37,266 bases of DNA from a virus, in the IMG/VR virus record IMGVR_UViG_3300034160_000023, positions 1 through 37,266 of that record. The stretch is one strand, 5' to 3'. Below, piece by piece: positions 4,602 through 31,900 of this stretch. How positions within the stretch are numbered: the stretch's first letter is position 1; each line of letters begins with the position of its first letter. Under the pieces are notes generated by a model. The model saw only the letters and a program-made list of their open reading frames with translations. It was not told the DNA's origin and did no database searches. Made by a program: the position numbers and the translations under genes.

Positions 4602-5564
4602 ATGGAAAACGCAAACTCAGCGTCTCAAACCTTGCAAGATCTTTGGACTCAAGTACAACCGGTGGATAACACCGGCATGCTTAGGCGCGTGGTTTTTGCG
4701 CAAGGCAAGTTTTATGCGGCTGGTGGCAACGGTCTTCCCACAACCACTCAGCTTGTCAGCGGAGGCGCAACTGGTACAGCGTGGACCAAGCTTATGGGCG
4801 CCATCACCTCTGATAGCGGAAAGGTCCTCAACGAGCTGTACTGGAACGGTATTGGGTCATCGCTTCAAGCCCTTTCTCAATCCGGCAATCTGATCTTCGG
4901 CAGCGCAGACCACCCTGAAAGGGCTTGGACAAACCTTACGGCAACTGTTCGCGCGTCCGGAGACTTGCAAGGCATTGTGTTTTATCAGCCAATTTACGGC
5001 GAGAACTACACCTGGATACTGGTTGGGTCTAACGGTAAAGTCTTTTCCCGTTATGGCGATTGGTCAGGCCAGGTGGAGCGCACTACGACCTTCACTTCTA
5101 GCGAGACTGTGTACTGCGTCAACGTCATTGGCAGTTTTGTGTTGGTTGCGGGATCGAATGGGAAGCTGCTTAGCGCTGTGAAGATGGCGACGGATAATCC
5201 GCAAACATTCACGACCAGAACCAGCACCTTCGGCTATAGCACCATCCTTTCCATGAAGCTTTGCAACGGGAAAATGTTTATCGTTGGTGCGGATGGCAAG
5301 ATGGCATATTCATCCGATGGGCTTAGCTGGACTGCTGTTGAAGATACCAGTTTCGGTGGAACCATCATCCGCGACATTGCTTACGGTAATGGCAAGTATG
5401 TAGCTGTCGGCGACGGCGGCAAGACAGCCGTTTCCGAGGATGGGATCGGCTGGGTTCAGCAAGCCAACACTTTCGCAGGAACCGATATCCGGAGCGTCGC
5501 CTACGGCAACGGCAATTTTATAGCTGTTGGTGCAGGCGGCAAGATTGCTTACTGGACTCCATGA
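4602..5564 (+). CDS. Beta-propeller-like repeat protein downstream of Com
   Basis: A 320-residue protein built of repeated blades. The clearest copies are RDIAYGNGKYVAVGDGGK and RSVAYGNGNFIAVGAGGK near the C-terminus; weaker copies (RRVVFAQGKFYAAGG; ILVGSNGKVFS; VLVAGSNGKLLS; KMFIVGADGKMAYSSDG) run through the rest. Such repeats occur in sialidase/YCF48-like propellers. No signal peptide or membrane segment is seen, so it is cytoplasmic or virion-borne. GGAG at 4592-4595 gives a good ribosome site. It is bounded by terminators on both sides with com as its only partner, so it looks like an independent cargo unit. Its composition is AT-richer than the head genes. The function is unknown. Confidence 0.8.
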   Translation: MENANSASQTLQDLWTQVQPVDNTGMLRRVVFAQGKFYAAGGNGLPTTTQLVSGGATGTAWTKLMGAITSDSGKVLNELYWNGIGSSLQALSQSGNLIFGSADHPERAWTNLTATVRASGDLQGIVFYQPIYGENYTWILVGSNGKVFSRYGDWSGQVERTTTFTSSETVYCVNVIGSFVLVAGSNGKLLSAVKMATDNPQTFTTRTSTFGYSTILSMKLCNGKMFIVGADGKMAYSSDGLSWTAVEDTSFGGTIIRDIAYGNGKYVAVGDGGKTAVSEDGIGWVQQANTFAGTDIRSVAYGNGNFIAVGAGGKIAYWTP

Positions 5565-5613: not shown

Positions 5614-5839
5614 CATTTCTGATTCAGGCTCGCCACAGCCAGGGTGGCCCTTCGGGGGATGCCTGGACGCGGATAAGCCGGTAGTGCCGCGCTACGGAAA
5701 AACACCGGCAGCCCGCGCGCCCTGACATAACACGCTTTTAGGGTGGCGCGAGACAGGAACAGCGAGATCGATGCACTTGGGTGTCGACGCCGTGATGGTC
5801 TTTGGCTGGCAGCGTGGGAAGACACGCGCACCTATTCAG
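5614..5839 (+). other. Non-coding stretch with several strong hairpins, possible structured RNA
   Basis: No convincing gene is seen; small reverse-strand frames here lack ribosome sites. The stretch can form a series of stems: GCCAC/GTGGC (5632-5636 with 5644-5648), GCCGGT/ACCGGC (5677-5682 with 5704-5709), a 10-bp stem with one bulge (5714-5723 with 5740-5750), and GCGTG/CACGC (5812-5816 with 5823-5827). GC-rich DNA gives some hairpins by chance, so a functional RNA is a hypothesis. It lies between two terminators and just before the holin and late genes. Confidence 0.4.
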
Positions 5840-15960: not shown

Positions 15961-16376
15961 GCCACGCCATTATCGCGACCATATACGAGGCCAAGCTGAT
16001 TGCCTGGAGCAAGGCACGGGCAGAGTCGATCAAGGTTGTGTTCGAGAACGTCCAATATGACTCGGCGGACGGCGAGACCTACCTACGGGCATTTGCGCTC
16101 CCAGGCGATACCGCAAGTAGCACGCTTGCCGGAGACCACCGCGCTTTCATCGGGGTCTACCAGGTCAGCATTGTGGCCCCGGCCAATACCGGGAAGATCA
16201 AGACGAACCCGCTTGTGGCTGAACTGATCGCACTGTTTCCGCTTTACGCGAGAGACACGAAGGCAGGCGTCACCGTCGTCACGATGTCACCGGTAGAGCA
16301 GGGGCCGGGGATCACTGACGCTGCGACATACATGGTTCCGGTCTCTTTCCAGTATCGAGCAGATACCGGCTCATAG
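15957..16376 (+). CDS. Tail terminator protein (lambda U-like position)
   Basis: A 139-residue alpha/beta protein with the pattern of siphovirus tail terminators (DUF4128-like): N-terminal helix IIATIYEAKLIAWSK, a central strand pair FIGVYQVSIVAP, and LVAELIALFP before the last strands. It caps the tail tube when the length set by the tape measure is reached and joins the tail to the head. It overlaps the previous gene by 4 bp. The tail tube gene is not next as expected; a cargo gene has been inserted. Confidence 0.78.
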   Translation: MSHAIIATIYEAKLIAWSKARAESIKVVFENVQYDSADGETYLRAFALPGDTASSTLAGDHRAFIGVYQVSIVAPANTGKIKTNPLVAELIALFPLYARDTKAGVTVVTMSPVEQGPGITDAATYMVPVSFQYRADTGS

Positions 16377-16427
16377 CTGGTTTGTTACTACCCACCGAGC
16401 CTCAATCCGCGATATTGCGTATGCGGC

Positions 16428-16455
16428 TATAATCGGTTCCTTTTTCCAAGGACCG
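16428..16455 (+). promoter_or_regulatory. Promoter -10 element plus hairpin that hides a ribosome site
   Basis: A perfect TATAAT is at 16428-16433; no good -35 was found. CGGTTCCTT (16434-16442) pairs with AAGGACCG (16448-16455) with a one-base bulge and a 5-nt loop. The 3' arm contains the AAGGA (16448-16452) that serves the ATG at 16460. A transcript starting ~7 nt after TATAAT would lack most of the 5' arm, whereas read-through mRNA from the tail operon would keep the hairpin. Confidence 0.5.
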
Positions 16456-16459
16456 GCAG

Positions 16460-17110
16460 ATGAAAAGTTTGGAAGACCTGATAGACGGCCGAGATCCCGC
16501 GCTACCCCTCATTGAAAAAATGTTGGGAGCGGCCACTTTGAGCTATCAGTTACTCCCCCCGTCCACCGAGAGTGGCCGCGTTCTTTCTAGCCTACAAGTC
16601 ACGACTAGATCGACGTTGGGGACGATTGCCTACGAGACCGGTGGTCTACTCATCGACCATGGTTGGTTGCGCGTGCTCGGCTCCGGGCATCCCCAATTGT
16701 CCCGAAATCTTGTTGATTGGAACAACGGGCGTGCCGATGCTTATTTGCTGGTCGCCGACGATGCTGCTGGAGGGTTCTTTTCCATTAATGGCGGCGGTCT
16801 AGGCGATGATGTAGGAGCGATGTATTACTGGGCACCGGATACATTACGGTGGGAGCAGTTGGACATCGGTTATACCGACTTTCTTGGTTGGGCCTTAAGC
16901 GATCGGCTCGCTACTTTTTACGACGGCCTGCGCTGGGATGGCTGGCGTAGTGACCTGCAGGAACTGAGAGCAGATCAGTGCTTTTCATTCTTTCCGTTTC
17001 TCTGGACTCGGGAAGGCTCAATCGACGAAAGCAGCCGCACGCTGATCGATGTCGGTGAGCAGTTTGAGATAAACGTCGAGTTGGCTCGCAAACTCGACAA
17101 ACCAGATTGA
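16460..17110 (+). CDS. DUF2625 family protein (cargo gene)
   Basis: A 216-residue protein with the DUF2625 pattern across its whole length: LLIDHGWLRVLGSGHPQLSR (~55-74), LVADDAAGGFFSINGGGLG (~96-114), YTDFLGWALS, FYDGLRWDGW and FFPFLWTREGS. The function of DUF2625 is not established. It lies between the tail terminator and tail tube genes and is preceded by its own -10-like element and followed by a terminator, so it is most likely cargo expressed apart from the tail operon. AAGGA at 16448-16452 is its ribosome site, within a hairpin. Confidence 0.85.
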   Translation: MKSLEDLIDGRDPALPLIEKMLGAATLSYQLLPPSTESGRVLSSLQVTTRSTLGTIAYETGGLLIDHGWLRVLGSGHPQLSRNLVDWNNGRADAYLLVADDAAGGFFSINGGGLGDDVGAMYYWAPDTLRWEQLDIGYTDFLGWALSDRLATFYDGLRWDGWRSDLQELRADQCFSFFPFLWTREGSIDESSRTLIDVGEQFEINVELARKLDKPD

Positions 17111-17247
17111 GGGGCAAACTGAGACACCTGCGCCCTTCACTCAACGAGTGCGACTCCTACAGACAATATTCTGCTTCCTGGATGTTGCCTGACGAAAAAT
17201 AGCTAGTCAGCTGTCTCGGCACCCACCGCTCCTACGGTTTACCAATG

Positions 17248-17269
17248 AACCCGCCTCTGTGCGGGTTTT
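17248..17269 (+). terminator. Terminator before tail tube gene
   Basis: AACCCGC (17248-17254) pairs with GCGGGTT (17261-17267) around a 6-nt loop, followed by TT then GT. The T-run is short, so it is probably leaky. The stretch 17111-17247 shows no gene. Confidence 0.75.
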
Positions 17270-17295
17270 GTCATTTCTGAAAAGAGGAAACACCC

Positions 17296-17952
17296 ATGGC
17301 CGGCATCCAAATGCCCAACGGCGCCACCCTTGAGATTGCAGCCGCCTACGGCCCAGCGATCCCATTCACCGCTTTGACGAATGCCAGTCCAGCCGTCGCG
17401 ACCGCTGCGGCGCACGGCCTGGCCGAGGGCGACGTCATCGCCGTCAATTCAGGCTGGACTCGCCTCGATGGTCGCGGTGTTCGGGTTGGAGTGATCGCCA
17501 GCGGCACGTTCGCGCTGGAGAACGTGAATACCACAAGTGCTCAACAGTACCCGGCCGGCTCCGGCATCGGCTCTGTCCGTGAGGTCACCGGATTCACCGA
17601 GATCTCGCAGATCACTGAGCTGGCGTCGAGTGGTGGTGACCAGCAGTTCCTGACCTTCGGTTTCCTGGCTGACGATGACGATCGCCAGATGCCAACCACC
17701 AAGAACCCGATCACGCTGACTTTCACCGTCGCCGATGATCCGTCCAAGCCGTATGTGGCCGTCTGCGAAGCTGCTGACGACGACAAGCAAGCCCGCCTGT
17801 TGCGCCTCAATCTCCCGGGCGGCAGCAGCATCATCTACAACGGCTACGTGTCGATCACCTCGACGCCGGCCATGTCCCGCAACAACCTGATGACCCGCGT
17901 CATCAGTCTTGCCCTGACCGGCCGCCCAACCCGCTACGCGGCTACGGTGTAA
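17296..17952 (+). CDS. Major tail tube protein (lambda V position)
   Basis: A 218-residue protein with the phage tail tube pattern: N-terminal IQMPNGATLEIAAAYG, a GGDQQFLTFGFLADDDDR segment (~113-130) and a beta-rich C-terminus (NGYVSITSTPAMSRNNLMTR). It polymerises around the tape measure to form the tail tube. The AAAGAGG upstream of the ATG is a good ribosome site. The tail chaperone gene starts 3 bp after its stop. Unlike lambda V, no clear C-terminal Ig-like domain is visible. Confidence 0.88.
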   Translation: MAGIQMPNGATLEIAAAYGPAIPFTALTNASPAVATAAAHGLAEGDVIAVNSGWTRLDGRGVRVGVIASGTFALENVNTTSAQQYPAGSGIGSVREVTGFTEISQITELASSGGDQQFLTFGFLADDDDRQMPTTKNPITLTFTVADDPSKPYVAVCEAADDDKQARLLRLNLPGGSSIIYNGYVSITSTPAMSRNNLMTRVISLALTGRPTRYAATV

Positions 17953-24757: not shown

Positions 24758-25120
24758 ATGCGCGCTCTCATTTCGTTGCTGCTGTTACTAGCTGCGTCCA
24801 CTGCGACTGCTGGCTACGATATTCATGTCACTCGCAAGTCGTTCTGGGCTGACGAAGTAGGTCCGAAAATTACCGCGGAGCAATGGCAGGCATACGTCAA
24901 AACTGATCCCCAGGTCGCTCTGGATACGGCTAATGGGCCTGAAGATTTTATGGTTTCAACGCCGAGCGAATCCTTTCCCTTGTGGTACAGCCCCCAGCTT
25001 GGGGAGATCTACACAAAGAATCCAAGCGATGCGGCAATCCTGAAGCTGCAAGACATTGCCGAAAGCTTGGGCGCGGGCGTCCAAGGTGATGATGGTGAGT
25101 CTTACCCGTTAAAGCCTTGA
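24758..25120 (+). CDS. Secreted (periplasmic) hypothetical protein
   Basis: A 120-residue protein with a clear signal peptide: MRALISLLLLLAASTATA, with Ala-Thr-Ala before the likely cut at residues 18/19. The mature part YDIHVTRKSFWADE ... ITAEQWQAYVKTDPQ looks like a small conserved periplasmic domain common in Pseudomonas, with no known function. AAGG lies 5 nt before ATG 24758; an in-frame upstream start at 24653 would destroy the signal peptide and read through the terminator. It is probably lysogen-expressed cargo acting in the envelope. Confidence 0.72.
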   Translation: MRALISLLLLLAASTATAGYDIHVTRKSFWADEVGPKITAEQWQAYVKTDPQVALDTANGPEDFMVSTPSESFPLWYSPQLGEIYTKNPSDAAILKLQDIAESLGAGVQGDDGESYPLKP

Positions 25121-25344
25121 GCTGACTCAAGTGGGGTGATGAGGGCGTCTAGTTTGGGGTATAGATTGCATTCCATCCACGCTGGATTCCTGGACAGGAA
25201 GCGAGCGGAAGAATACGGCGCTAAGGCAACACGCCAGGACGTAGCGCTGTGGACAAATCAGGAGAGCGGTTGGAGCATTCTTTAATGCTGAACCGCTGCT
25301 TCAGCGAGTGAAGATTCGGCCGCGTAAAAATTTTCTTCTGCCCT
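25121..25344 (+). other. Intergenic region with hairpin and repeat copy 2
   Basis: No gene is seen here. A perfect inverted repeat CTTGAG-CTGA-CTCAAG (25116-25131) overlaps the end of the secreted-protein gene and could act as a weak terminator. Repeat copy 2 is at 25169-25203. The rest, to the heat-shock promoter at 25345, shows nothing recognisable. Confidence 0.5.
25169..25203 (+). repeat. Two-hairpin repeat, copy 2
   Basis: This differs from copy 1 in only a few places over ~35 bp. The second hairpin reads TTCCTG-GA-CAGGAA instead of GCCTG-GA-CAGGC, so both arms have changed together and pairing is kept. CTG-N10-CAG is also kept (25182-25197). It lies 237 bp before the hsp20 gene, too far to act as its proximal operator. 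Confidence 0.6.
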
Positions 25345-25370
25345 CTTGAAATTTTTTTCGGCCAACATAA
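25345..25370 (+). promoter_or_regulatory. Sigma32-type heat-shock promoter
   Basis: CTTGAAA (25345-25351) is an exact match to the sigma32 -35 core. About 10 bp later comes CCAACATAA (25362-25370), a fair match to the CCCCAT-type -10. The start of transcription would fall near 25377, leaving a leader of about 60 nt before the hsp20 ATG. Confidence 0.7.
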
Positions 25371-25380
25371 ATTTTTATCA

Positions 25381-25431
25381 CGCGACGCCGAATGTGGGTC
25401 GCGCACTTAATCACTTGGATTTAATCAGGAG
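25381..25431 (+). promoter_or_regulatory. Candidate RNA thermometer in hsp20 leader
   Basis: The leader folds into a stable hairpin CGCGAC/GTCGCG (25381-25386 with 25398-25403) and a weak second hairpin in which CTTGGAT (25414-25420) pairs with ATCAGG (25424-25429) through a U-G wobble and a bulged G, covering the AGGAG ribosome site (25427-25431). Pseudomonas ibpA leaders are known ROSE-like thermometers; the exact UYGCU signature is not present here. Confidence 0.5.
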
Positions 25432-25439
25432 ATTTTGAG

Positions 25440-25898
25440 ATGGCTACTACCCTTTCGCTGGCCCCTTTGTTCCGCCAATCTGTTGGCTTCGATCGCTTCA
25501 ATGACCTGTTTGAGTCGGCGCTTCGCAGCGAGACTCCGAATACCTATCCGCCTCACAATGTGGAAAAGCACGGTGATGACGAATATCGAATTGTCATCGC
25601 AGTAGCTGGGCTCACAGAAGCGGATCTGGATATCCAGGTCGAGAAGGGTGTTTTGACAGTCGTTGGGGACAAGCGCGAAACCGAAAAAGAAGTAACCTAT
25701 CTGCATCAGGGTATCGCGCAACGAGCATTTCGGTTGTCATTTCGACTGGCAGATCACATTGAAGTGCGCGGTGCTTCGATGAACAACGGACTGTTGAGTA
25801 TCCACTTGCTGCGTGTGGTGCCCGAAGAAGCCAAGCCTAAGAAAATTGCTATCGGTAGCGAAGGTACTCCTGAGCTGCGTCAGGTTAGCTTGCAGTAA
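25440..25898 (+). CDS. ibpA: Small heat-shock protein, IbpA/Hsp20 family
   Basis: A 152-residue full-length Hsp20. The N-terminus (SLAPLFRQSVGFDRFNDLFE) is that of Pseudomonas IbpA. The alpha-crystallin domain spans about 38-130 (NVEKHGDDEYRIVIAVAG; DIQVEKGVLTVVG; QRAFRLSFRLADHIEV; NNGLLSIHLLRVVPEEAKPK). IbpA proteins hold unfolding proteins for refolding by DnaK and ClpB. It has its own sigma32-type promoter, a leader that may sense temperature, and a strong terminator, so it is an independent stress gene inside the phage tail operon. It is likely to be a second copy beside the host's ibpA. Confidence 0.95.
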   Translation: MATTLSLAPLFRQSVGFDRFNDLFESALRSETPNTYPPHNVEKHGDDEYRIVIAVAGLTEADLDIQVEKGVLTVVGDKRETEKEVTYLHQGIAQRAFRLSFRLADHIEVRGASMNNGLLSIHLLRVVPEEAKPKKIAIGSEGTPELRQVSLQ

Positions 25899-25911
25899 CT
25901 TGGAGGTATCA

Positions 25912-25943
25912 AAAAAAGGCGCTCTTAGTAGCGCCTTTTTTTG
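25912..25943 (+). terminator. Strong terminator after hsp20
   Basis: AAAAAAAGGCGCT (25912-25924) pairs perfectly with AGCGCCTTTTTTT (25931-25943) around a 6-nt loop. The A/T flanks suggest it can work in both directions. Confidence 0.95.
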
Positions 25944-26014
25944 TTTTTGTGTACTCGGATTTAAGGCTTAGCCTCATGTACAGAACGTGCGACCTTCTGG
26001 AGCCGTTTCCTTGA

Positions 26015-26023
26015 TGCTACAGT
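26015..26023 (+). promoter_or_regulatory. Extended -10 promoter candidate
   Basis: TG-C-TACAGT lies 26 bp before the first ATG (26049). Comparable TG-N-TA motifs occur before the genes at 24501 (TGCTATCGT) and 27105 (TGGTAGAGT). No -35 is evident. Confidence 0.35.
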
Positions 26024-26048
26024 CCCGCCAAACCAACGAGGGAACGAC

Positions 26049-26096
26049 ATGCGCATGGCGTGGAATTTGACCCCGGACGGGTTGACACATGGATAG
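26049..26096 (+). CDS. Possible 15-residue leader frame overlapping next start
   Basis: Start with GAGGGA upstream, reading MRMAWNLTPDGLTHG, ending at TAG 26094 just past the ATG at 26089. The next gene has no ribosome site of its own, so translation of this short frame could supply ribosomes to it. It may instead be the true N-terminus of the next gene separated by a frameshift. Confidence 0.3.
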   Translation: MRMAWNLTPDGLTHG

Positions 26097-26409
26097 GCTT
26101 GATCGCTTAAACGGTCTGCTGCGCGAGCATGATTGTGTTATGTCGATCAACATCAAATTCGACGATTTCAAATACGATTTGGTTTTGGTGCTTTCTGCCA
26201 ATGGGTCAGATTTGGATGCGGTGAAACTGACTTTTCATGATGTCAGCGCTCTTGATTTGAGCGGGTTTGGTGGTGGGCTGACCCAGTTCATGCATCTTGA
26301 AGCCGCTAGTGTAGATAACGGGCTCGACAGAATTCGCTATGAAATGAGAGATGTGAATGACGAGAAGATATCGTTCAAATTCTTTACTTTCGGCGGATCA
26401 ATTTTTTAG
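26089..26409 (+). CDS. Hypothetical cargo protein (immunity-protein-like look)
   Basis: A 106-residue acidic, beta-rich protein (MSINIKFDDFKYDLVLVLSA; VKLTFHDVSALDLSGFGGGL; KISFKFFTFGGSIF at the end). It is visibly AT-richer than the structural genes. ATG 26089 has no ribosome site but overlaps the stop of a 15-residue frame; ATG 26140 is an alternative. The general pattern of alternating strands resembles small immunity proteins, but no family is recognised, so this is only an impression. Confidence 0.5.
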   Translation: MDRLDRLNGLLREHDCVMSINIKFDDFKYDLVLVLSANGSDLDAVKLTFHDVSALDLSGFGGGLTQFMHLEAASVDNGLDRIRYEMRDVNDEKISFKFFTFGGSIF

Positions 26410-26417
26410 GAGCAAGC

Positions 26418-26450
26418 ATGCGGATTTTGATAGCGGCGGTAGCGGTTTAG
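26418..26450 (+). pseudogene. Ten-codon remnant, possible lost gene start
   Basis: ATG 26418 has AGGAG 5 nt upstream and reads MRILIAAVAV before TAG. It looks like the beginning of a signal peptide. The following gene has the same TAGGAGC set-up 40 bp later, so this may be what remains of a deleted gene, or a translational link. Confidence 0.3.
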
Positions 26451-26460
26451 GAGCTTCAAG

Positions 26461-26916
26461 ATGGGATTCGCAACGACGCTCTGGGAATGGTATGGGCAGG
26501 GGGAGTTCAAGCGGGTACTCGCCGTTTGTGAAGTATTTCCTGCTCTGGAATTCTTGGCGATGAGTGCAGATGAGCAGCGAGAAGCTATTCCTGACTGCCC
26601 TGCATGCGAAGCCTGGTCCATGACAATGTTGCCGTTGAACGAGACCTTGGCGGCCTGTGGTAATGCCATGCCAAGCGAAGTAGAGCGCGGCCTCCAAAAC
26701 CTCTGGCAACTATGTAATGGCCTGTCTGAAGACGCTTTCCATTGTGGCGACCGGTTGATATTCGATCATCAAGATTGGACGTCTATTCGTGAGTCCGCTA
26801 CAGACCTGCTCCGGCTGATGGAGCGTCTGGAGATGACCCCTTATCTAAATGAACTGACGGTTGATTGCCATAACGAGGTAAATGGGTACGTTGCTGCAAA
26901 GCCCGAACGTTCTTAA
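26461..26916 (+). CDS. Hypothetical cargo protein
   Basis: A 151-residue, mostly helical acidic protein (MGFATTLWEWYGQGEFKRVL; ATDLLRLMERLEMTPYL near the end) with five Cys. AGGAG (26449-26453) lies 7 nt before the ATG. It is in the same direction as, and close behind, the gene at 26089, so the two may work as a pair. No signal peptide, membrane segment or known domain is seen. It is followed by a terminator stem that has lost its T-run. Confidence 0.6.
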   Translation: MGFATTLWEWYGQGEFKRVLAVCEVFPALEFLAMSADEQREAIPDCPACEAWSMTMLPLNETLAACGNAMPSEVERGLQNLWQLCNGLSEDAFHCGDRLIFDHQDWTSIRESATDLLRLMERLEMTPYLNELTVDCHNEVNGYVAAKPERS

Positions 26917-26937
26917 CATCCACGAAAAAAAGAGCCG

Positions 26938-26958
26938 AGCCCAGCCCCGCGCTGGGCT
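26938..26958 (+). terminator. Decayed terminator
   Basis: AGCCCAGC and GCTGGGCT form the same stem as at 5588 and 24662, but the T-run is replaced by CTATG, so it is unlikely to stop transcription well. A weak GCCC/GGGC stem with TTTC follows near 27019-27034. Confidence 0.55.
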
Positions 26959-27104
26959 CTATGCATCTAGCCTATCCCATCTGCGCCGCCTAGCCTCCCC
27001 CGAACCCGAAATAACCCCGCCCATGCCGGGCTTTCGTGTTGGCGTTTCACCAGTCAATACGTCGGTGGTAGAGTCTCCCGTCTTTGAGCAGGGATGCTAG
27101 CGAT

Positions 27105-28353: not shown

Positions 28354-28935
28354 GTGTCAGCACTCGCGATCAACTATCAGCCTATGACCACCATACTGCT
28401 CTACGGCAAGCTCCGGCAGTTCGGAAGGTCGTTCCGACTATCTGTGCGATCACCAGCAGATGCAATAAAGGCCCTGTGTGTACAGATTCCAGGATTGGAA
28501 AGGTTTATCTCAAACGCTAAGTCGCGCGGCATCGAGTTTGCCGTTTTTCGCGGATCGAAAAACATTGGCGCTAAAGAGCTGGATTACGCTGGGACGGAAG
28601 TAATTCGTATCGCTCCAATTATTACTGGCAGCAAGAGAGCTGGCCTTCTTCAAACGATCGTCGGCGTGATCTTGATCGCCGTTTCTTTCATCCCAGGTTT
28701 TCAAGCTCTTGCTGCTCCGGGCATTGCACTCGCTGCCGGCGGCGTGATCCAAATGCTAAGTCCCCAGGCCGGCGGCCTCAAGACCAGCGCCGCGCCAGAA
28801 AACACCCCCGGTTACGCCTTCGGCAGCGCAAAGAACACCACCGCGTCCGGCAACCCGGTACCGCTTTGTATAGGCGAGCGCCGGTGGGGTGGCGCAATTA
28901 TCAGCGCCGCCATCTATGCCGAAGACCAGATGTAG
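28354..28935 (+). CDS. Tail assembly protein, lambda I-like
   Basis: A 193-residue protein with the lambda I pattern: LYGKLRQFGRSFRLSVRSPA near the N-terminus, a central hydrophobic stretch (~101-130: GVILIAVSFIPGFQALAAPG) and a C-terminal GYAFGSAKNTTASGNPVPL. In lambda, I works with J, K and L to build the tail tip and is probably not in the finished tail. It starts with GTG, with CTGGAG upstream. In lambda K and I are adjacent; here 4.4 kb of cargo separates them. Confidence 0.9.
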   Translation: MSALAINYQPMTTILLYGKLRQFGRSFRLSVRSPADAIKALCVQIPGLERFISNAKSRGIEFAVFRGSKNIGAKELDYAGTEVIRIAPIITGSKRAGLLQTIVGVILIAVSFIPGFQALAAPGIALAAGGVIQMLSPQAGGLKTSAAPENTPGYAFGSAKNTTASGNPVPLCIGERRWGGAIISAAIYAEDQM

Positions 28936-28956: not shown

Positions 28957-28977
28957 CCGCCCAAGAGGCGGTTTTTT
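28957..28977 (+). terminator. Terminator between I and J
   Basis: CCGCC (28957-28961) pairs with GGCGG (28967-28971), then six T, then TTGCCTGGAGGAAAAG carrying the J ribosome site. Confidence 0.85.
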
Positions 28978-28994
28978 ATTGCCTGGAGGAAAAG

Positions 28995-31900
28995 ATGGGC
29001 GACGACAGCAAGATCGACATCCACGGCGCCAAGGGTGGCGAGGAGAAACCGAAAACGCCAACAGAGGCCCCGGATAGCCTGCGCTCCGTTGCCATCGCCA
29101 AGATGCTGATTGCCATCGGGGAGGGTGAGTTCGAAGGCACGCCCACCGCGCGCGACATCTATCTCGACAACACCCCGCTGCAAGATCCTCAGGGCAACAT
29201 GAACTTCCCGAACGTGAAGTGGGAGTGGCGCACCGGCGCTGTGGACCAGACCTATATCCAGGGCATCCCCTCGATCGAGAACGAAACCACCATCAGTACC
29301 GAACTGCGCAGCGGCACACCGTGGGTTCGGGCAATCAGTAACACCCAGCTTTCGGCTGTGCGCGTGCGTTTTGCCTGGCCGGCGCTCCAGTCTGTGGATG
29401 CCAGCAACAACATCAACGGCTACCGGATTGAGTACAAAGTTGAGCTCGCCACCGACGGCGGTGCTTATCAGCAGGTGCTGAGTGAGGCTGTCGACGGCAA
29501 GACCACGAGCACTTATGAGCGCACCCGCCGTATCGATTTGCCAAGGGCAACATCCGGCTGGCTTATGCGCATCACCCGGCTGACGATCAACCAGAACAAC
29601 AACAAAATCTCCGACACGATGCAGATCGCGGGCTTCACTGAGGTGATCGACGCCAAGATCCGCTATCCGAACACCGCGCTGCTCTACATCGAATTTTCGG
29701 CCGAGCAGTTCCGCAGCATTCCGGCCGTGACTGTCGGCTGCAAGGCTCGCAAATGGCAGGTCCCAAGCAACTACGACCCCGTGTCGCGGACATACAGTGG
29801 TATCTGGGACGGAACGCTCAAAGAGGCCTACACCAACAATCCGACCTGGGCCACATACGGCATCACCACGGCCGACCGCTTCGGCCTGGGCCGGCGCATC
29901 AAACCGTGGATGGTGGACAAGTGGGAGCTCTACCGCATCTCGCAGTACTGCGACCAACTGGTGCCGGACGGGAAGGGCGGCCAGGAGCCGCGCTTCATCT
30001 GCAACCTGAACCTTCAGAGCAAGGCTGATGCCTGGTCGCTGCTGCGCGACATCTCGGCGATCTACCGGGGCATGACCTACTGGGCCCAGGGCCAGGTCTT
30101 CACCCTGTCGGATATGCCGCGCGCCACTGATTTTGACTTCGCCTACACCCGGGCGAATGTGATCGACGGCAAGTTCACCTACTCGAGCGCGTCGGAGCGC
30201 ACGCGGTACAGCCGCGCGCTGATCAGCTACGACAACCCGGCGAACAACTACGACACCGACGTCACTGCCGTTACAGATGCCAAGCTGCAGCGACGCTACG
30301 GCGACAATCCGCTGGAGATCAGTGCCATCGGCTGCACTCGTGAGTCGGAGGCGCAGCGCCGGGGCAAGTGGGCATTGCTCACCAACTCCAAGGACCGGGC
30401 CGTTACCTTCAAAGTCGGCCTCGACGGGCGCATCCCGCTGCCTGGCTACGTGATCCCGATCGCCGACGAACTCCTGGCCGGTCGGCCGGTGGGCGGGCGC
30501 ATCTCTGCGGTGAACGGCAAGGTCATCACACTGGACCGTGATACCCAGGCCAAGCCCGGTGACCGATTGATCCTCAACCTGCCGGACGGCAAGTGCGAGG
30601 GGCGCACCGTGCAGTTGGTCAGCGGCCGGCAGGTCACCGTTACCGTTGCCTACTCCGTTGCGCCCGAACCCGAACTGGTGTGGGCGCTGGATGCCGACGA
30701 CCTCGCGATCCCGTTGTACAGGGTGGTGAGCGTGGCACGGCCGGAGCCTGGCGTGTTCGAGATCTCGGCCGTGCAGTATGACCCGAGCAAGTTCGCGCAC
30801 ATCGACACCGGCGCGCGCCTGGAAGAGCGCCCAATCAGCGTTGTGCCGATCACCGTAGTTCCGGCGCCGGCGAACGTCGATATCACGTCGAACTACTCCG
30901 TGGACCAGGGGCTGGCGATCAGCACCATGAACATCTTGTGGCCCGCCGTGACCGGCGCGGTCGCCTATGACGTGGAGTGGCGCAAGGACAGCGGCAACTG
31001 GATCAAGGTGCAGCGTACCGGTTCGACCAGCGTCGACGTCACTGGCATTTACTCCGGCGCCTACGTGGCCCGGGTTCGGTCCGTGAGCGCCTTCGAGATT
31101 TCCTCGATCTGGAAGAGCTCCAACCTGACCAACCTGGAAGGGAAGGTCGGCCTGCCGCCGGCGGTGGCCTTCCTGACCACCACCAGCGAACTGTTCGGCA
31201 TCGGCATCAAGTGGGGATTCCCCGCCGGCGCCGAAGACACCCAGCGCACCGAGCTGTGGTATGGCCCGGCCAATGATCTTGCGGTAGCGACCAAACTGGC
31301 CGATCTCGCGCACCCGCAGGCGGATTACAGCATGCAGGCTCTCAAGGCCGGCGCGCAGCTCTTCTTCTGGGCGCGCCTGGTCGATCGTACCGGCAACGTC
31401 GGCACGTTCTTTCCAGTCGGCAACGGCGTGATGGGGATGGCCAGTGCCGACGCGGCGCCGGTGCTGGAGTTGATCGCTGGGCAGATCGGCCGGACCGAAC
31501 TCGGCCAGGACATCAACGACGAGATCGACAAGATCCCAGGCCTGCAGGCGCAGATCGATGCGCTCGACGGGCTGTCTGCCTACGATCCTGAGCAAATCTA
31601 CCTCGAGGGCGACCTGGTGGCGGTTGGCAAGCGGATATATCAGGCTACTGGTCTGGTCCCCGTCGATACACCTCCGCCGAGCGCTAGCTTCTGGCTGGAC
31701 GTGGGCCAGGTTCTGGTTACGGCCAACGGCCTGGCGCGCCAGGTGGAGATCAACACCACCAGCATCACCGAGTTGGATGGCGCGGTCACGGCAAATGCCT
31801 CGAGCCTTCAGGCCTTGCAGTCGGCTTATCGGGACGACACTGGGGAGGGTGATTTGGCTGATGCGCTCCAGGGCTACAACGCCTCGGCGAGTTTCGCGCA

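Follow-up and report, generated by a model that had tools for sequence, protein, structure and literature searches.

Positions 25324 to 25943 of the window (the whole stretch of 37,266 nucleotides of viral DNA that was analysed) are, in our judgement, probably a moron, i.e., a host-type, self-regulated heat-shock unit that serves lysogens, outlives the prophage and is able to stand in for the native ibpA. The phage is a temperate, lambda-like Pseudomonas phage, and the unit (+ strand, as are all its elements and the genes around it) is found between the tail genes K and I. It comprises a candidate promoter, a leader, ibpA and a terminator-like hairpin, and it was delimited as the blastn block common to the ibpA loci of hosts and prophage remnants.

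The gene itself (ibpA, 25440..25898) codes for a small heat-shock protein (HSP20) of 152 amino acids, with a Pfam PF00011 match of 64.6 bits against a cut-off of 20.8, a match to PHROG 432 (Hsp20) and relatives in the PDB that are small heat-shock proteins. A complete IbpA gene had been claimed in an earlier note made on this DNA, and this open reading frame bears the claim out. The frame is preceded by a non-coding stretch of 319 bases, counted from the stop of the open reading frame that ends at 25120. Since the protein falls short of the NCBIfam IbpA equivalog model NF008013 (140.6 vs 212 bits), which was scored here on the window protein, we name it a Pseudomonas-type IbpA and not an equivalog of that model. 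By analogy, it is a putative holdase that would keep unfolding clients.

The earlier note had also read CTTGAAA at 25345 as a sigma32-type −35 element. In fact, the motif is exact (25345..25351) and is kept in most of the Pseudomonas ibpA leaders compared, although the accompanying −10 element, CAACATAA (25363..25370), is degenerate. When the site is set against CTTGAA-N13-18-CNCCATAT, whose −10 consensus was taken from PMC3669281, the window has the exact −35, a spacer of 12 nt and six of the eight −10 positions, counting N. Pattern statistics are also in line with a promoter: CTTGAAA-N14-CATAAAT, which was derived from the window site itself and is conserved in close relatives, has one exact match in the window and two at up to two mismatches, versus 0.16 expected. 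Transcription would start at about 25377, giving a leader of about 62 nt, and the length reported for the P. putida ibpA leader is likewise ~62 nt (PMC3669281). At the other end of the unit, an intrinsic-terminator-like hairpin follows ibpA (25910..25943), in a terminator scan that should give about one such match in the stretch by chance. The blastn blocks shared with five other loci (L022, L023, L024, L003 and G208; 86-90% identity) run from 25324 to 25943-26014. As the homology with chromosomal ibpA loci is bounded at about these positions, the unit seems to move entire, with promoter, leader, ibpA and terminator travelling as one whole.

Pseudomonas ibpA leaders are known ROSE-like thermometers with a sigma32 promoter (PMC3669281), and in most of those compared here the promoter and a GC-rich first hairpin are followed by another hairpin that covers the Shine-Dalgarno (SD) sequence. 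The window leader contains a ROSE-like element (25379..25445) that matches Rfam ROSE_3 (RF02523) with 40.4 bits (E 3.5e-7), slightly under the gathering cut-off of 43. The leaders of relatives score 44.6-61.8 bits, and those with the same variant as the window (L003 and L022-L024) reach 44.6-45.8 bits, above the cut-off. As is expected of ROSE elements, there are two hairpins, with the SD paired in the 3′ one. Hairpin I (25381..25403) has 100% paired cells in an alignment of 35 distinct leaders, with a compensatory change in one pair. Hairpin II (25409..25434) pairs the SD sequence AGGAG (25427-25431) and includes an A-A mismatch (25413/25430) and, possibly, a bulged G (25417); for this G, opposite the SD, one compensatory pair favours the bulge, whereas the minimum-energy form pairs it. 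Over these 35 leaders, 99.8% of the cells are paired. Hairpin II varies only at the pair 25420/25424, which is G-C in 26 leaders and U-A in eight, that of the window among them. This exchange was probably one ancestral double change, so the compensatory pair supports hairpin II and does not prove it. Furthermore, the ROSE part of the window leader is 95-98% identical to those of L002, L003 and L022-L024, at dS values of 0.1-0.7.

The canonical anti-SD motif, U(U/C)GCU, is absent from the window leader; the window and its clade have UUGGA instead, which faces the SD with the A-A mismatch. The folding energy of the leader is not significant (z −1.15), and in 48 of 300 shuffled sequences the SD is hidden to the same degree or better; consequently, the case for a thermometer rests on comparison. 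Thermal accessibility predicted with ViennaRNA was rejected as a thermometer test because it does not discriminate even among validated-type leaders: the accessibility of the SD between 25 and 42 °C goes from 0.21 to 0.22 in the window, a negligible change, and the change is also small for the validated-type leader L079. The leader variant may be no thermometer at all, the heat response coming from sigma32-dependent transcription alone, a reading consistent with the loss of UYGCU, the ROSE_3 score below the gathering value and the lack of predicted melting. We consider it rather unlikely, as hairpin II is constant but for the compensatory pair, the SD is embedded in it and relatives with the same variant exceed the ROSE_3 cut-off. 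The window leader would accordingly be classed as ROSE-like, a variant that lacks some of the traits by which the class is defined. The RNA thermometer over the ribosome site put forward in the earlier note is supported in this form, as a candidate ROSE-type variant recognised by comparison, without the canonical motif.

The position of ibpA in a late tail operon, as first described, holds insofar as the gene lies among tail genes, and can be given more exactly as the gap between K and I. The left border of this gap is the tail tip gene K (JAB + NlpC/P60; 22998..23861, with a true start probably downstream of 22998), and the right border is the tail assembly gene I (phrog_32; 28354..28935), the lambda-like tail gene J also flanking the region on that side. 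Two genes to which no function was assigned follow ibpA (26089..26409 and 26461..26916). Both travel with it in the metagenome contig L002 and the chromosome G315. The former is also present in L185, a contig that starts too late to include ibpA, and homologues of the latter occur in 21 of 300 Pseudomonas genomes; related phages that lack ibpA have it too. In 69 related viral contigs that span the gap, its size varies from 0.4 to 5.9 kb, and ibpA was found in the gap in none of them; other small genes occupy it in phiAH14a and PseuP_222. The K-I gap therefore appears to be a variable cargo site in which ibpA is a rare cargo. L002 has the same arrangement as the window: its ibpA (99% identity in protein, 97.5% in DNA) is followed by the same two neighbours and then by I and J. 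Thus, the unit has the traits of a moron, as an autonomous unit between morphogenesis genes that is absent from relatives.

Other candidates for phage-borne ibpA were rejected. Pseudomonas phage Y7 (OQ572409) was considered as a second phage, but its record is UNVERIFIED, the genes around its ibpA look chromosomal and the ibpA itself groups with that of P. aeruginosa PA7; the stretch read of OQ572409.1 resembles the P. aeruginosa chromosome, with dihydrouridine-synthase-like, SDR and LysR-like genes and a native-type ibpA. In L004/L229 and L231, ibpA is beside prophage ends and probably belongs to the host flank, and the pattern matches L228, L230, L232-L234, L236 and L238 have no ibpA. An additional locus, L237 (1453-2514; IMG/VR 2597490354_000008), has two ROSE-ibpA genes in tandem.

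Some further elements of the phage were observed. The Rfam Proteo-phage-1 RNA (RF03044), a known phage noncoding RNA upstream of holin and terminase genes, is present at 5633-5713 (+) with 94 bits. Among the tail genes, a gene at 16460-17110 (+) matches NCBIfam NF008498 (PRK11408) with 314 bits, above the cut-off, and it would be a second host-type cargo of the phage. Its homologue in strain BCA17 (88%; Pfam DUF2625) is about 2.4 kb from the extra ibpA of that strain, with an adjacent phage gene fragment. A short intergenic motif was also found in the window (28968-29002) and in L103 (3051-3073, 3719-3755 and 8557-8585), and it recurs ahead of the tail genes I and J and of the fibre gene in PseuP_222; it is possibly a shared regulatory element.

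The earlier note had proposed a tree of IbpA from hosts and prophages. Whether built from DNA or from protein, the trees nest the phage gene within the fluorescens-group Pseudomonas, and so inside the Pseudomonas IbpA tree, beside copies from P. poae, P. palleroniana and related strains. The copies of the window, L002, G315, G208 and L003 form one clade (support 97/94). Purifying selection acts on the phage ibpA: the window and L002 copies have 13 differences, with two amino-acid changes (dN/dS 0.05, P 8e-5), and 14 sites vary among the three phage-type copies (window, L002 and G315), again with two amino-acid changes (P 3e-5).

The clade-specific leader pattern was found in nine of 400 Pseudomonas genomes. 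Each of the 11 chromosomal near-clade copies has a tRNA-Ser(TGA) attachment site or phage fragments in its vicinity, and two of the 11 are at a site other than tRNA-Ser. The tRNA-Ser attachment sequence lies within 5 kb of ibpA in 7/11 near-clade loci, versus 1/77 other ibpA loci (Fisher P 4e-7, for a grouping made after the data were seen). Structural-gene fragments of this phage type are present in three of the seven near-clade loci tested, in 1/26 loci from elsewhere in the wider clade and in none of 50 canonical ibpA loci. The clearest case is G315, with an identical IbpA (100% protein identity) and 96.6% DNA identity over 1.8 kb (window 25168-26975): this decayed prophage has lost most structural genes and keeps K, ibpA and the two following genes, with an integrase-end sequence and tRNA-Ser(TGA) 5.6 kb from ibpA. 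In G208, a fragment of K precedes ibpA and a short I/J-side motif follows it, and in MWU15-20650 a J fragment and tRNA-Ser are near the gene. Partial copies of tRNA-Ser, of the sort that integration leaves, lie 2.4 kb from ibpA in P. poae and G048, and tRNA-Ser is at most 2 kb away in G273, G294 and G349. In BCA17, a 1.1-kb piece of phage DNA (window 16278-17371) lies about 2 kb from ibpA, and P. palleroniana has spanin-like debris by the gene. Phage structural sequence near ibpA is scant or nil in G273, G294 and L021/G048. L003 was rejected as an ibpA inside a related prophage, since a tRNA-Ser repeat at G001 4683-4797 places the gene outside it, in an older remnant. The G001 prophage (L239-L241) is 59 kb long and is integrated at tRNA-Ser(TGA) beside that remnant, with a perfect 115-bp attachment repeat (4683-4797 / ~58194-58308) and a chemotaxis-receptor-like gene near its end.

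The earlier note suggested that the whole regulated unit had been acquired from a host. The unit is of host type, as indicated by the shared block from 25324 to ~25943-26014 and by the nesting in the trees. According to these comparisons, traffic of ibpA seems to have run between phage and chromosome, in one direction or the other, with the closest “host” copies themselves in prophage debris or at an attachment site. An alternative that we regard as possible, if less probable, is that ibpA reached the tRNA-Ser(TGA) of a P. poae-like lineage by other means and was captured once, into the K-I gap, by an integrating phage, so that the chromosomal copies would be no phage deposits. This concerns the origin of the unit and fits the same present-day function. 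It is favoured by the basal copies of L021 and G048 and by the G273/G294/G349 trio, which lie at tRNA-Ser and have phage genes that are scarce or absent, and the single clade that unites the window with L002, G315, G208 and L003 fits one later capture. By contrast, imprecise excision would place ibpA at a phage end and not within the late operon, old prophages are indicated by fragments of the attachment site near L021 and G048 and of an integrase near L021, and phage fragments are also found beside the copies at the other site (BCA17 and P. palleroniana). On balance, we lean towards phage seeding of the tRNA-Ser copies over pick-up there.

With respect to function, we would give little credit to a role in virion production, where the chaperone, transcribed with the late operon, would fold capsid and tail proteins in lytic growth. 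The location of ibpA inside the late gene block and the hsp20 genes of many cyanophages (PMC3827213) agree with such a role. However, the unit has its own promoter and terminator, the leader should stop translation when cool, none of the 69 related phages that share these tail genes carries ibpA, and chromosomes have retained it after most structural genes were gone. Being closed on both sides, absent from related phages and longer-lived than the structural genes, the unit is unlikely to help virion assembly. It is more improbable still that ibpA is a neutral passenger or an assembly artefact with no role. Its rarity among related phages would suit this reading, but the independent record L002 and the complete-looking chromosome G315 have the same neighbours, the gene is under purifying selection and the ROSE part is conserved to the extent given above. 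Of the two purposes offered in the earlier note, the support is better for aid to the lysogen in heat, and there is none for help in capsid and tail folding.

In the favoured reading, that of a moron that serves the lysogen, and by reference to the validated Pseudomonas ibpA units, heat would raise sigma32 (RpoH) in the lysogen and ibpA would be transcribed from its own promoter. The ROSE-like leader, whose ribosome site would be paired when cool, would open when warm, and IbpA would then hold unfolding client proteins. The terminator would restrict run-on into the tail genes. As the prophage decays, selection would keep the unit in the chromosome, where it may replace the native ibpA, if we infer the order of events correctly.

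Several genomes suggest that this replacement has taken place. In nine of ten near-clade genomes, the near-clade copy is the only IbpA found. The exception, BCA17, has a second copy (77%) downstream of an ABC-transporter-like gene, a position that ibpA also has in P. rhodesiae and P. cedrina. P. rhodesiae and BCA17 have the usual ibpA site occupied, while in P. palleroniana its flanks abut exactly, with 1,537 bases including ibpA missing (L046 4929-6465). The upstream flank is kept without ibpA in P. poae and G048, and the downstream flank in G315, G208, G004, G273, G294 and G349. In this comparison of draft assemblies, and with an inferred ancestral position, the native ibpA has apparently disappeared from the genomes that have the phage-associated copy, BCA17 being an intermediate. 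We tentatively propose, with somewhat less than even confidence, that phages have repeatedly replaced the core ibpA of fluorescens-group Pseudomonas through entry at tRNA-Ser(TGA), loss of the native gene and decay of the prophage, leaving the phage copy as the sole IbpA.

Phage Hsp20 genes (PMC3827213), Pseudomonas ibpA thermometers (PMC3669281) and a few phage thermometers (PMC10586365, PMC11182007) were already known. Like the Pseudomonas ibpA ROSE-like system (PMC3669281; RF02523), the window has a putative sigma32-type promoter and a two-hairpin leader of ~62 nt with the SD in hairpin II and ibpA next; unlike it, the unit is carried by a phage, has a UUGGA-type anti-SD with an A-A mismatch in place of UYGCU and scores 40.4 against the cut-off of 43. 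The phage RNA thermometers named in the literature found are only those of lambda cIII, SPbeta blyA (fourU; PMC10586365) and a Caudoviricetes sigma70 gene (fourU; PMC11182007). These are also in phage or prophage mRNAs, but none is of ROSE type, and they belong to phage-regulation, lysis and sigma-factor genes and not to a heat-shock chaperone. Small heat-shock proteins are encoded by cyanophages and other phages as well (PMC3827213, PMC5028025; phrog_432), mostly large T4-like phages whose proteins, compared at the protein level only, are ~35-45% identical to that of the window. As in lambdoid morons and lysogenic-conversion cargo, the unit has its own promoter and terminator, is found between tail genes and is absent from relatives, but its cargo is a core stress gene with relatives that stand alone in chromosomes without a native copy. 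The transmissible locus of stress tolerance (tLST; PMC8290217) also spreads small heat-shock protein genes horizontally in proteobacteria, as a genomic island of many genes, whereas here a phage carries a single gene together with its regulation. In the literature searched, no paper was found that describes a ROSE-ibpA unit in a phage or the replacement of the host copy by one, an absence that is not proof.

The unit adds to phage thermometers a candidate of ROSE type that precedes a chaperone gene and has travelled along with the promoter and terminator. It is, moreover, a testable instance of phages with a protein-quality-control gene under temperature control and of a core stress gene whose place is taken by a prophage remnant. 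As strains with only the native copy, with both or with only the phage-type copy are already sequenced, the steps of replacement are directly testable. If phages have indeed replaced ibpA repeatedly, the heat tolerance of such cells would depend on phage-derived DNA.
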